The position numbers and the translations under genes are program-made. From positions 1 through 8,004 of the forward strand of contig JACOWJ010000023.1 of NCBI GenBank assembly GCA_016176845.1: 8,004 nucleotides of DNA, given 5' to 3'. Under the pieces are notes generated by a model. That model had not been told where the DNA came from. It worked only from the letters and a program-made list of their open reading frames with translations, and made no database searches. The DNA is from Nitrospinota bacterium. GTDB lineage: Bacteria; 2-12-FULL-45-22; JACOWJ01. Positions 1,786 to 8,004 of this stretch are shown in pieces (position 1 is the stretch's first letter; each line of letters begins with the position of its first letter).

Positions 1786-2769
1786 ATGGGCTTTTTTGTG
1801 TCAGCGAATTTAAGGTGGCTTCGCTCAGGCATAGGGAGTCTTTTGTGGGCGGTTACAGCATGTGCCGCTCCCCTTGGCCATCCAGCTATAGTACGCGACG
1901 CTTTTCCGGTGTTTGATCATCCTGTCATGCTCGCGGCCGCTGAGGCCGAGCGGGAAAGGGTGGTTTTTGACTGGGACGCCGTGATCGGCGTTCAGTATGG
2001 CAAGGAAGCCAAAGCCTATCCCATTGCCGTGATGGGGGTCCACGAGTTGGGGAACGATACCATCGATGGGATTCCCATTGCAGTGAGCTGGTGACCGCTC
2101 TGTCAAACGGCCATCGTGTATGACCGTCGGGCCAACGGGAAAGTTTTAAGTTTTGGCCATACAGGAGTTCTGCACAAAAACTCCTTTGTGATGTATGACA
2201 GGCAAACTGGATCACGATGGGTCCAGGTGACCGGCGAAGCCGAAAAAGGTCCTCTAAAAGGACAGCAGTTGAAATTCATACCTTCCACGGTGACCACCTG
2301 GGCAAGGTGGAAACAATCTTATCCCAATACTCTAATATTACCAGGATATCGTCGTGGTGCATTCATAGCCTATAAGGGTATCGATTATTACGAAGATGTT
2401 GGTTTATCTGTTGTAGTAAAATTTCAAGCCAAACTTTATCCATTTTTGCGTTTGAAGCGTAGTACTATTGTCAACGATCAGTTTAATGGTGAAGATTTAT
2501 TCATCATTTATTCCCATGAATCAAAAATAGCCACAGCCTGGAGTCGAAAGCTCAATGGGAAAACATTAACTTTCAAAAAAATGACCGAAAAAGATGACGA
2601 AGGAAATATTTTGATCCGGGATGAACAAACAGGGAGCTCATGGTCGTGGCTGACCGGTGAAGCGGTGGAAGGCGAGCTCAAAGGTCAGAGGTTAAAACAG
2701 TTGTCCTATCATCCAATCCTAATCGAACGGTTTCATGCCTTTTATCCGAATGGTCCGGTCTTCCGATAA
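1786..2769 (+). CDS. DUF3179 family protein, candidate selenoprotein (in-frame TGA at the CPLC Cys)
   Basis: One frame runs to TAA at 2767-2769 with a single internal stop, TGA at 2092-2094 (codon 103). Reading through gives 327 residues, about full length for DUF3179, whose biochemical role is unknown to me. Family features are DAFPVFDHP near residue 38, AYPIAVMGVHELGND (78-91; the family has WHEIVND), VSW-TGA-PLCQTAIVYDR where the family has VTYCPLCxTAxVFDR, MYDRQTGSRW, PLKGQ, PSTVTTWARW, and a C-terminal FHAFYPNGPVF. The TGA therefore replaces the first Cys of CxxC, and Cys 106 is kept. A SECIS-like hairpin follows at 2102-2132. The N-terminus has a hydrophobic segment ending in VTAC (Cys 26), a possible lipobox. 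ATG 1786 lacks a clear ribosome-binding site; GTG 1798, seven bases after GGGATGGG, is an alternative. From about 2330 the gene is clearly more AT-rich than its neighbours, which suggests transfer. A plain nonsense mutation is the alternative reading. Confidence 0.8.
2102..2132 (+). promoter_or_regulatory. Candidate bacterial SECIS hairpin
   Basis: In the mRNA, ACGG (2107-2110) pairs with CCGU (2124-2127). After a C/A mismatch, CAU (2112-2114) pairs with AUG (2120-2122), leaving the apical loop CGUGU (2115-2119). Below a 2x2 internal loop, GUC (2102-2104) can pair with GGC (2130-2132) using one G-U pair. Counting the U of UGA as 1, the loop G and U are at 25 and 26; in E. coli fdhF the key loop G and U are at 23 and 24. 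A short stem, a G in the first two loop positions and this spacing fit the loose bacterial SECIS rules. Such rules are permissive, so the hairpin supports but does not prove recoding. Confidence 0.45.
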
Positions 2770-3040: not shown

Positions 3041-3985
3041 AGCCCGGCCGATCCGGAACCGGCGCAGGAGATCCAGAAGTACGGCTACACCGCCCTGGAG
3101 CTCATGACTTACATGGACAGCAACCGCGAGACCCGGGGCAAGCCCGACTTCAGCGTCTATCACCTCTGCGTCAACGTCACCCGCCGGGGCGGCAACATCC
3201 GAGAGGGGGGCATCCTCCAGAAGTACAAGTTCTACTACCAGGGCTACGCGGCCCGCCTCAAGCAGAAAGGGATCCAGCCGGGGGACGTCTAGTACCGCTC
3301 CCTCTCCCTGCTGACCAGCCCGGCCGAGAACCGGGGCGATACCACCATGCGGACCTATTACCTGCAGGTGCCGGGGAAGCGCAAGGACAGCGACAGCTGG
3401 CGCTATAGCAAAAAGGCCCGCAAGGTCACCCGCGACGTGGCCTCCGATCGCCAGGACGACCAGGGCAGCATGCACACCACCCGCGACGACAACGAGGGAC
3501 GGGAGCCCTGGCAGGAGAATCACCGGATCCTGGGGGAGGATCTCTACAAGGGACAGGCCTGCTTCGTGGTCGAGAGCGTCCATCGGTCCAAAGATTACTA
3601 CCTGGGCAAGCGGGTCATCTGGGTGGAGAAGACCAACTTCCTGGACCTCCACGAAGAGCAGTACGACCCGGAGGGCCGCCTCTGGAAGATCCTCGAGAAG
3701 GAGTGGTTCCAGGTGAGGCCTGGAAACTGGTGGTTCCCTCGGCTGATGAACAGCATCAAGCTCCCCATGGGGCGAAGGACGATCCATCAGACCCCCATCT
3801 ACCGGATCCATGAGGGGCCTGTGAAGGACGACTACAATATGCAGGGCCTCCGCAAGCAGGTCCCCTGGATCGAAGTCGAGGGCGTGCTGCCCCCCAAGAG
3901 CAGCTACGCTGACCTGCCTCCCGAGCCCTAGCCCAGGCGGGAGTTCTGGGAGAAGAGAGGGATCAAGATCCGGGTGAAGCAGTAA
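3041..3985 (+). pseudogene. Broken DUF1329 gene: no 5' end, two in-frame TAG codons
   Basis: One frame holds DUF1329-like sequence from about 3041 (SPADPEPAQEIQKYGYTALE) to TAA at 3983-3985. It is interrupted by TAG at 3290-3292 (GDV-TAG-YRSLSLL) and again at 3929-3931 (PPEP-TAG-PRREFWEKRG). Sequence stays protein-like after each stop, and a Tyr codon (TAC or TAT) is one base from TAG at both places. Motifs shared with the downstream paralogue include the W-Y-S-(+)-R-(+)-V-TR core, a DRQD segment, DD-EGR-W/PW-E, H-LIGED-like text and IxWxEK. No start codon or signal peptide lies upstream. DUF1329 proteins are exported and envelope-associated, with a LolB/LppX-like fold. The simplest reading is a decaying paralogue of the genes at 4411 and 7814. 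Amber recoding is possible but less likely because the 5' end is also lost. Confidence 0.75.
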
Positions 3986-4410: not shown

Positions 4411-5821
4411 ATGAAGCTTAAGGCTTATCTCTCGGCAGGTCTGTTCCTGGTCTCCCTGCTGGCGTTTCTCCCGCTCTCTCAGGGACCCCACCTACCCCTG
4501 GCTCCCCAAGGACCCCTACCCCTTCACCCAGCCCTACACCGGGGTGGAGCTGGCCTACCTCACCTTCTTCGACCACAAAGTCTACGGGGCCAAGTATCAG
4601 GACTACTCGCTGATCTCGGCCCGGTTGAACAAGCGGGGGCTGATGACCCAGCGGAAGGCGTATATCAAACGGGAGCTCCTCTATGACCATTACAAGGACC
4701 TGATGGACTACAGCGAGGGCAAGGTCAAGATCGGAGAGGCGACGACCAGGCGAATGCTGATCTACGAGACCCCGGCGGACGTGCGGGGTCTCGGGTCGAC
4801 CAAGATCACTCACCTCAACAGTCCGGTCAGTAAGTGGAGGATGGCGGACTCCTGGACTTACTCCCCCGGCCTTCGGAGAGTCACCCGCTCGCAGGGGGGA
4901 GACCGGCAGGACGAGATCCTGGGAACCCCGGTGACCAACGACGATGAGGGAGACCGGGAGGTCTGGGAGGAGGACCACGAGCTGATTGGAGAGGACGTCC
5001 TCTACATGCAGATGCTCGACCCCCAGATCGTCGCGCCGGACCGTGAGATGAACACCGGGGACCTGAAGGTGGACGGCCAGTGGTTCGTCAAGAACATGGA
5101 CCCCAGCCGGGGCGAGCTGAAGCTGAGCCCTTACCGGCCCGATGGCGGCATCGAGTGCTTTGTGGTCAAGAGCACTTGGGCCAAACGGAAGGAAGGGTTT
5201 GGCTCCCATGTCTTCCCTGACCCGAAGCAGTATTACCTGAAGTACCGGATCAGCTGGATCGAGAAGGTCTCGAAGGCCTTCATCCGGGAGGAGCAGTATG
5301 ACCACGATGGGCGGCTCATCAAATTCATGATGATGAATCAAGACTTCTACCCCGGAGGCGTGATCGAGGGCGGCATGAACCGCACGCAGTACCAGATGTA
5401 CGATTACCGGCGGCATTTCCGGTCCTGGGGGAGGTACGACCGGGCCGATATGGGGACCAAGTTCAAGGCCCCCGAGGACTGGTTCACCCCCGAGCACCTC
5501 TTCCGGGAGTACTTCTGGAAGAAGACAAAGATCCCCATGATGAAGAGCATCTCGGAGTTCGGCCCTCCTCCAGAGCTGTGGCGGGCCAAGTTCCCCAAGT
5601 ACCGCAAGGGGACGAGCGATTGGATCGTGAAGTCGAAGGAGGACATGGAGTACATCACCAGGGTCTGGAAAGAGCACGGCTTTACCGACGAGGAGATCGA
5701 CGCCCTGACAAACGGGGATGGGATGATCCGCAAGGGCGGTAAAGCCATCCCGGTCCGGCGCCCCTATCGGCCGGCCTTTATCCACGGCAAGCCCCTGCCG
5801 GTGAAGTTCCCCACGGGCTAA
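4411..5821 (+). CDS. DUF1329 family exported protein, one-base frameshift in the signal peptide
   Basis: ATG 4411 has a strong ribosome-binding site (AGGGAGGG, six bases away) and opens a classic signal peptide, MKLKAYLSAGLFLVSLLAFL. That frame leaves coding sequence after LPLSQ. The mature protein continues in the next frame (DPTYPWLPKDPYPFTQPYTG, then VELAYLTFF) to TAA at 5819-5821. Removing one base from GGG (4482-4484) or CCCC (4486-4489) joins them into 469 residues. Without that, the long frame has no start before GTG 4544 and no export signal. Family traits shared with the remnant at 3041 are DSWTYSPGLRRVTR, GDRQDEI, DDEGDREVWEEDHELIGED, YRISWIEK and EEQYDHDGRL. DUF1329 proteins act in the cell envelope; ligand and partner are unknown here. 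The shift may be a sequencing error in a homopolymer or a true recent mutation. Confidence 0.8.
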
Positions 5822-5841: not shown

Positions 5842-5956
5842 AATTGGAAATTGAAGATTGGAAATTGGAAATTGCAAAATGTAAAGGAGACGCATGCTTT
5901 AAAATCTCTCGATTTGCACTTTGCACTTTCCAATTTCCAATGGAGCGAAGCGACAG
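5841..5956. repeat. Second copy of the AT-rich inverted repeat with GGAGCGAAGCGACAG tail
   Basis: ATTGGAAATTGG (5857-5868) is the exact reverse complement of 5930-5941. The left arm repeats the unit ATTG(G)AA several times. The block ends in CAATGGAGCGAAGCGACAG (5938-5956), differing by one base from 438-456. As with the first copy, it sits just upstream of a gene on the + strand. Codons can be read across it in frame with the next gene, including an ATG at 5941, but they are repeat sequence. Confidence 0.65.
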
Positions 5957-5993
5957 GAGCGTGTCCCTCAGCTTATCGGATAGGAGGTGTCAA

Positions 5994-6812
5994 ATGGCAT
6001 ATTGGGCCTATTTACTGATCCTGCCCATTTTGGCCTTTAGTTCCCCGAGATCTCAAGCCCTTGAACCAGAGGAAGGCATCCTCGGCAAGATGGTATACAT
6101 CCCCGAAGGGGAGTTCATCATGGGCAGCGATCATGATGATAAAGACCTTAAAACCTATCATGACATTTGGGGATATGAGGTAAGGCCCCGGAAGGAGGGG
6201 AAGGAAGAGGTAAAGATAGGGCCGGCAAAAAAGGTATCTCTAAAGGGTTTTTACATCGATGCTCATGAGGTAGCCAATGCCCAGTATAAGAAATTTGTGG
6301 ATGCTACAGGATACAGACTGCCTACGCAATGGGAAGATAGTGGAACTTATCCTGAAGGAGAGGATAATTACCCTGTATACAATGTGAGTTGGAATGATGC
6401 CAATGCATATGCCAGGTGGGCAGGCAAACGTTTGCCAACAGAGGAGGAGTGGGAAAAAGCAGCAAGGGGAAAAGATGACAGGTTATACCCATGGGGTAAT
6501 GAGAAAATAAAAGAGGCTGTAAAAACATGGGATTCCATGAGGGGATATGCTCAGGAAACAGGAAAGAATAAATATGATAGAAGCCCTTATGGGGTATATG
6601 ATATGGCAGGTAATCTGATGGAGTGGACAGCAACGAAGATAGAAAATTCTATAAGATGGGGCCATAGTCTGGAAGAAACCGGTTATGAGACAGGTGTCAT
6701 TATAAAAGGTGGTGGATGGGGTGTAGAGCTTGACGAAGCAAAGATCCCAAGAAAAGTCCTCGCTTCACCAGATTCAGTGATCAATGGTATAGGTTTTAGA
6801 TGTGCCAAGTAA
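5994..6812 (+). CDS. Exported FGE-sulfatase-fold protein (SUMF1/PvdO-like), paralogue 1
   Basis: The start ATG 5994 follows AGGAGG (5982-5987) by six bases; the frame upstream is repeat sequence. The 272-residue product opens with a signal peptide (cleavage likely after SQA, residue 22). The FGE-sulfatase domain follows: MVYIPEGEFIMGSD, GFYIDAHEVANAQYKKFV, NYPVYNVSWNDANAYARWAG, KRLPTEEEWEKAARG, YPWGN, DRSPYGVYDMAGNLMEWTA, KGGGWG, and GIGFRC at the end. True formylglycine-generating enzymes need a Cys pair after the KGGS(W/F) motif. Here that stretch (KGGGWGVELDEAKIPRK) has no Cys, so sulfatase activation is unlikely; related folds serve in PvdO, NirV and EgtB, and the role here is unknown. 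From about 6240 the gene is AT-rich, unlike its GC-rich paralogue 32 bases downstream, with which it probably forms an operon. Confidence 0.88.
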   Translation: MAYWAYLLILPILAFSSPRSQALEPEEGILGKMVYIPEGEFIMGSDHDDKDLKTYHDIWGYEVRPRKEGKEEVKIGPAKKVSLKGFYIDAHEVANAQYKKFVDATGYRLPTQWEDSGTYPEGEDNYPVYNVSWNDANAYARWAGKRLPTEEEWEKAARGKDDRLYPWGNEKIKEAVKTWDSMRGYAQETGKNKYDRSPYGVYDMAGNLMEWTATKIENSIRWGHSLEETGYETGVIIKGGGWGVELDEAKIPRKVLASPDSVINGIGFRCAK

Positions 6813-6844: not shown

Positions 6845-7657
6845 ATGGGAAAGTCAGGCATCTCCGTGGGAATGATGATCTTCCTTCTGGTGCTCCTGTC
6901 CGCCTCCATGAGAAAAGAAGAGGTGATCCTGGGCAAGATGATCTACATCCCGGAGGGGCAGTTCACCCTGGGCAGCGATGACCCGGAACTGCGGAGCTAC
7001 TTTGCCCTCCTCGGCGGCAAGGCCAAGCTTCAGCGGCCGGTGGGAGCTGCCCGAAAGGTCCACGTGAAGGGCTTCTACATCGATGCTCATGAGGTAACCA
7101 ACGCCCAATATAAGAAGTTTATCGACGAGGCGCATCATCCTCCCCCTGAGTACTGGAAGGACGGGACCTTCCCGGCAGGAGAGGAGAACTACCCCGTCCA
7201 TAGCGTGAGCTGGTACGATGCCCGGGCTTACGCCAAGTGGGCGGGCAATCGGCTGCCTACCGAAGAGGAGTGGGAGAAGGCCGCCCGGGGAAAGGATCGG
7301 CGGGCCTTCCCGTGGGGCGACCAGGCCCAGGGACCGATGGCCCAGGCGTGGGAAGCGGCCTGGGGGAAGGCCGAAGGGCCCCAGCCCATCGGGAAGTTCA
7401 AGTCCGACAGGAGCCCTTACGGGGTGGCGGATATGGCGGGCAACCTCTCGGAGTGGACCGCCTCGACCTACGAGTATGAAGGGGTGGTCACCAAGGGCCG
7501 TGCCTCGGAGGAGACCAGCTCCGGAGCGGAGATCGTCGTCAAAGGAGGGAACTGGAGCTTCCCGATCGCGGAGGCCAAGATCTCGCGAAAGATCTTTCAT
7601 CCGCCGGATGAGATCAGCAATGGGATCGGGTTTCGGTGTGTAAAGGATGCCCCATGA
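6845..7657 (+). CDS. Exported FGE-sulfatase-fold protein (SUMF1/PvdO-like), paralogue 2
   Basis: ATG 6845 follows AAGGAGG (6834-6840) by four bases. The 270-residue product has an N-terminal hydrophobic segment (MMIFLLVLLSAS) that should act as signal peptide or anchor. It mirrors paralogue 1 along its whole length: MIYIPEGQFTLGSD, GFYIDAHEVTNAQYKKFID, VSWYDARAYAKWAG, RLPTEEEWEKAARGKD, PWGD, DRSPYGVADMAGNLSEWTA, VKGGNWS and NGIGFRC. It likewise lacks the Cys pair of catalytic FGE. Codons are GC-rich like the rest of the genome, yet 21 bases (TACATCGATGCTCATGAGGT plus A, 7076-7096) are identical to 6252-6272 in the AT-rich paralogue. Function is unknown; the context suggests an envelope or periplasmic protein linked to the DUF1329 proteins. 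Confidence 0.88.
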   Translation: MGKSGISVGMMIFLLVLLSASMRKEEVILGKMIYIPEGQFTLGSDDPELRSYFALLGGKAKLQRPVGAARKVHVKGFYIDAHEVTNAQYKKFIDEAHHPPPEYWKDGTFPAGEENYPVHSVSWYDARAYAKWAGNRLPTEEEWEKAARGKDRRAFPWGDQAQGPMAQAWEAAWGKAEGPQPIGKFKSDRSPYGVADMAGNLSEWTASTYEYEGVVTKGRASEETSSGAEIVVKGGNWSFPIAEAKISRKIFHPPDEISNGIGFRCVKDAP

Positions 7658-7813: not shown

Positions 7814-8004
7814 ATGAACACTCCAAGAAAACGCTCTATGATCCTGGGGGCTGCTGCCCTGGCTTGGTTCCTGGCCCTGGCCTGGACGGGTCTGGCCCTT
7901 GCCGTCGACAAATATGCCCCCGCCCCCAGCGCTATCAAGGGCTGGACCGAATACAAGGAGCCCATTAAGGACCTGCGGGACCCGGCCCACCGCAACCCCA
8001 AGTA
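7814..8004 (+). CDS. DUF1329 family exported protein, N-terminal part (cut by window end)
   Basis: ATG 7814 follows AAGGAGG (7799-7805) by eight bases. The 63 visible codons give a signal peptide (MNTPRKRSMILGAAALAWFL, then a cleavage site near ALA-VDKY). The mature start, YAPAPSAIKGWTEYKEPIKD and LRDPAHRNPKY, is typical of DUF1329 proteins. This is the N-terminal region missing from the broken copy at 3041, whose first readable residues (DPEPAQEIQKYGY) would follow just after a segment like LRDPAHRNP. The gap from the FGE-like gene is 156 bases with no clear terminator, so shared transcription is possible. The frame is open to the last base of the window. Confidence 0.8.
   Translation, partial: MNTPRKRSMILGAAALAWFLALAWTGLALAVDKYAPAPSAIKGWTEYKEPIKDLRDPAHRNPK

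Follow-up and report, generated by a model that had tools for sequence, protein, structure and literature searches.

DUF3179 domain-containing proteins (PF11376) are already listed among the prokaryotic selenoproteins, with a UxxC/T motif, in two reviews (PMC9312934, PMC13188914); the entries of both for this family give Zhang and Gladyshev 2007 as the source, with the delta-proteobacterial symbiont of Olavius algarvensis. Judged from those entries, the gene described here shares with the catalogued members its Pfam family and a TGA as the opening codon of the UxxC motif, and belongs to another organism, a Nitrospinota bacterium (contig JACOWJ010000023.1). It is thus an added member and not a new family, and the suggestion of a new selenoprotein made in a preliminary description of this DNA has to be dropped. 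Cys-form DUF3179 proteins (e.g. those of Litoreibacter and Tropicimonas) are homologous to it across the first repeat, with Cys in the Sec column; they differ in having no SECIS hairpin, and in several of them the well-matched region stops earlier. Rieske [2Fe-2S] ferredoxins (e.g. 2qpz, 3gce and NirD 2jo6) resemble each DUF3179 repeat in its predicted fold, but share no hhalign or Pfam similarity with it, and DUF3179 is without the conserved CxH...CxxH ligands.

In the window (the whole stretch of DNA that was analysed, 8,004 nt), the gene and its elements are arranged as follows.

1786-2769, + strand: predicted DUF3179 (PF11376) selenoprotein gene, 327 aa, U as residue 103, TAA stop at 2767-2769
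1786-1869, + strand: putative N-terminal signal sequence with a possible lipobox, VTAC, as read from the translation with a putative start codon
1894-2355, + strand: first repeat, with H-E (WHEIVND-like) and U-P-L-C, from Pfam, alignment, model and hhalign
2092-2094, + strand: TGA, predicted to encode Sec, in the first-Cys column of CPLC, from the translation and the homologue alignment
2107-2127, + strand: SECIS-like hairpin ACGG.CAT-CGTGT-ATG.CCGT, loop at 2115-2119, from pairing and published rules
2407-2769, + strand: second repeat, without the CPLC motif, from Pfam, model and hhalign

The TGA at 2092-2094 is the sole interruption of the frame, which is otherwise open, with no other lesion in 327 codons. 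Around this codon the readthrough product reads ...GIPIAVSWUPLCQTAIVYDRR... PF11376 matches flank the TGA on both sides, and the whole readthrough belongs to DUF3179 with 227.6 bits (gathering cut-off, 27 bits). The preliminary description had given the frame, its single stop and the conserved sequence on either side exactly as translation and Pfam do; it had also placed the TGA at the first Cys of CPLC, and the alignment puts the codon precisely in that column. The local motif is SWUPLC, not TYUPLC.

A search of the host genome for the sel genes had been proposed at the outset, and all of them are present. This genome, a MAG of 1.53 Mb that is 68% complete, encodes SelA (608 bits), SelB (378 bits), SelD (381 bits) and a tRNA-Sec with anticodon tca (70 bits). 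SelD has its own in-frame TGA at the canonical active-site position (SHGAGUACK), which makes it a second selenoprotein gene of the genome and an internal control. Other genes of the window terminate with TGA (1613-1615 and 7655-7657), so the codon is not generally reassigned in the host. The SelA/SelB/SelD/tRNA-Sec system of the host would decode the TGA at 2092-2094 as Sec.

The nearest homologue found, in a SAR324 bacterium (L034, JACZRV010000028.1), is 59% identical across the whole readthrough and carries TGA at the same codon; its genome encodes SelA, SelB and tRNA-Sec. Between these two genes, 16% of second and 58% of third codon positions are changed upstream of the TGA, and 26% and 71%, respectively, downstream of it. 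Since third positions change far more than second ones behind the TGA too, that part is selected as protein.

We surveyed 386 genomes, 53 of them DUF3179-positive, and took the homologous Sec/Cys column from every DUF3179 locus. The Sec form occurs in 17 of these 53 genomes. TGA stands exactly in the Sec column at 21 loci in 18 genomes of different lineages, which is the independent recurrence that the preliminary description had proposed to look for; elsewhere the column holds Cys (about 35 distinct loci) or, in a few cases, Ser, Asn or Asp. SelA is found in 16 of 17 TGA genomes of the survey, compared with 18 of 36 DUF3179 genomes without TGA (Fisher p=0.0014). SelB scores above its cut-off in 17 of the 18 TGA genomes, and the same 17 have tRNA-Sec. 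In one genome (G193, 98% complete) SelA, SelB and tRNA-Sec were not found despite four TGA copies of DUF3179 (L083, L087, L088 and L094), whose TGA codons occupy the Sec site and are accompanied by SECIS-like hairpins; missing contigs, a binning error or unusual decoding may account for this. On the DUF3179 tree the Sec label must change 7 times, and well-supported branches force at least 2 of these changes. Most Sec forms cluster, the window gene among them; examples outside this main group are L046, beside a Cys clade of 16 members (99% support), and the pair L003/L068.

The hairpin directly downstream of the TGA would direct Sec insertion. Published rules for bSECIS elements specify a loop of 3-9 nt at a distance of 16-37 nt from the UGA, with G within its first two positions, a stem of 4-16 bp and an MFE <= -7.5 (PMC13188914). 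The window hairpin, whose 5-nt loop (CGTGT) starts 20 nt past the TGA and has G as its second position, agrees with them at -12.9 kcal/mol over 52 nt; the hairpin alone has -5.1 kcal/mol, with one C-A mismatch in its stem. At most Sec loci a hairpin lies 15 to 35 nt past the first TGA base, with the loop CGTGT, GGTCT, AGTTT or TGTGT. The mean seven-pair score is 5.67 for TGA loci versus 3.0 for Cys loci (p=1.6e-7), and the pairing of TGA loci is lost when the partner strand is shifted along as a sliding control. None of 1000 synonymous recodings reaches the observed pairing for TGA loci; for Cys loci, 177 of 1000 do. The hairpin covaries as well: 24 double-change cells were counted versus 7.0 in shuffles, none of 500 shuffles being equally high. 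Taken by itself, the window sequence forms a hairpin no more stable than its shuffles, and 13% of its synonymous recodings pair equally well. With this unremarkable energy, support for the SECIS is comparative and comes from the family.

On the sequence evidence, the odd TGA codon of the window DUF3179 gene almost certainly encodes selenocysteine; what had been put forward as a candidate is now strongly supported by the sel machinery, by TGA in independent lineages and by a SECIS hairpin with covariation. The neighbourhood could be taken to suggest a pseudogene, that is, a Cys codon mutated to TGA within a decaying region. Such a mutation is a one-base change, and the real lesions in neighbouring genes that the preliminary description had mentioned do exist, as in-frame TAGs and a frame change in nearby DUF1329-like genes. 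Decay is nevertheless very improbable here, given 327 codons without further lesion, a 59%-identical homologue with the same TGA and a downstream part under purifying selection, and TGA in this same column in 18 genomes.

Less probable still is a sequencing or assembly error. The draft MAG is incomplete and other genes in it are broken, but an error would not hit the very codon at which the nearest homologue and further genomes also have TGA, and a SECIS hairpin stands behind this one. We give hardly any weight to a reassignment of TGA in the host to Trp or Cys instead of Sec: the in-frame TGA of SelD, which might speak for it, is a canonical Sec site, the host genome holds a complete Sec machinery, and TGA still ends other genes of the window. 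Sec decoding at a position that would form a reactive site with His-Glu, in what is probably an extracytoplasmic selenol/thiol enzyme, is the best explanation as a whole, and we put its probability at roughly 95%.

The product is probably exported, as its N-terminal sequence indicates, and would act outside the cytoplasm, in the cell envelope. A single domain is repeated in its two halves (probability 99.9 and 28% identity in hhalign), with the CPLC/UPLC site confined to the first. The AlphaFold2 model of the protein is confident (pLDDT 92). In VIA-align both halves match Rieske ferredoxin folds; the best rows reach Z 8-9 over ~90-100 residues, close to the tool's quoted background; all 50 of the 50 structural matches listed are Rieske-type proteins. 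A Foldseek search of the model returned no match at E <= 0.001, no Rieske family came up in Pfam scans extended to E=10, six Rieske-type sequences compared by hhalign did not match, and a sequence search for relatives of solved structure found none. With hhalign and Pfam silent on Rieske kinship, only the resemblance in fold remains. Among 33 aligned members the invariant residues are H60, E61, N64, C77, P78, L79, G101, L103 and G129 (aligned-fragment numbering), and the pattern of Rieske cluster ligands, CxH...CxxH, is not found among them. CPLC can be aligned by eye with the Rieske CPxH loop, but the VIA residue ranges point to cluster loops located more downstream, and we do not assert that correspondence. 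We regard the tandem Rieske-like fold predicted by the model as a good lead, not as membership.

The reactive residue would be Sec/Cys77 of the first repeat, probably together with the invariant His60-Glu61 of the (W)HEIVND motif; Cys would fill the role of Sec in other lineages. A selenol/thiol-dependent enzyme of this kind would probably carry out redox chemistry. The CxxC redox pair proposed in the preliminary description fits the window copy, which retains the second Cys (UPLC), and does not extend to the Sec homologues as a group, whose U+3 position can hold C, T, S, A, V, I, Q or E. A conserved second Cys for a selenenylsulfide, as in a thioredoxin-like UxxC pair, was not found among the Sec homologues, which rules out an intramolecular selenenylsulfide as the general mechanism. 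With a resolving Cys optional at U+3, the selenol would more likely be resolved by an external thiol or a partner protein. A more speculative proposal, which we consider rather unlikely, would make DUF3179 a tandem Rieske-type fold whose iron-sulfur cluster was lost and which gained a selenol/thiol site of Sec/Cys and the invariant His-Glu, as a widespread exported selenol-dependent enzyme. If true, such a cluster-free Rieske-type protein would be an enzyme kind not yet described biochemically.

To the catalogued family we add the breadth of Sec use, a looser motif, a covarying SECIS and a predicted tandem Rieske-like fold, none of which was found in a small literature sample naming DUF3179. 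Compared with the catalogued UxxC/T, the 18 genomes hold UPLS, UPLA, UPLV, UPLI, UPLQ, UPLE and UPVC besides UPLC and UPLT; SECIS covariation is likewise shown here. Found in about one third of the sampled DUF3179-positive genomes, Sec in this family is no isolated curiosity, and annotation pipelines that halt at TGA probably truncate many of its proteins. The variable U+3 position and the predicted tandem Rieske-like fold offer concrete hypotheses for an uncharacterised family, and a cluster-free site is directly testable.

Gene neighbourhoods of the DUF3179 loci indicate no functional partner or substrate. A short-chain dehydrogenase gene adjoins Sec-DUF3179 in only three Sec loci (L003, L068 and L076, from three genomes of different families). 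In the window, the frame of a DUF1329/LolA-like gene at 3104-3985 continues past in-frame TAGs at 3290-3292 and 3929-3931; that of another, at 4414-5821, changes near 4480, and position 7814 may mark the start of a third copy. Positions 392-1615 encode a Radical SAM/SPASM protein with a C-terminal PCP_red domain, whose closest models are those of heme b synthase AhbD, with a score well under their cut-off. A TTTTAGG-type inverted repeat (1725-1780) lies directly 5' of the DUF3179 start codon. A related intergenic element occurs at 391-456 and 5843-5956, with inverted AATTGGAAATTG repeats and the end CAATGGAGCRAAGCGACAG; its copies are 89% identical over 45 nt and perhaps represent a dispersed repeat of the host genome. 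Two adjoining genes with sulfatase-modifying-factor (FGE) domains, at 5844-6812 and 6845-7657, are diverged tandem duplicates of markedly different base composition.
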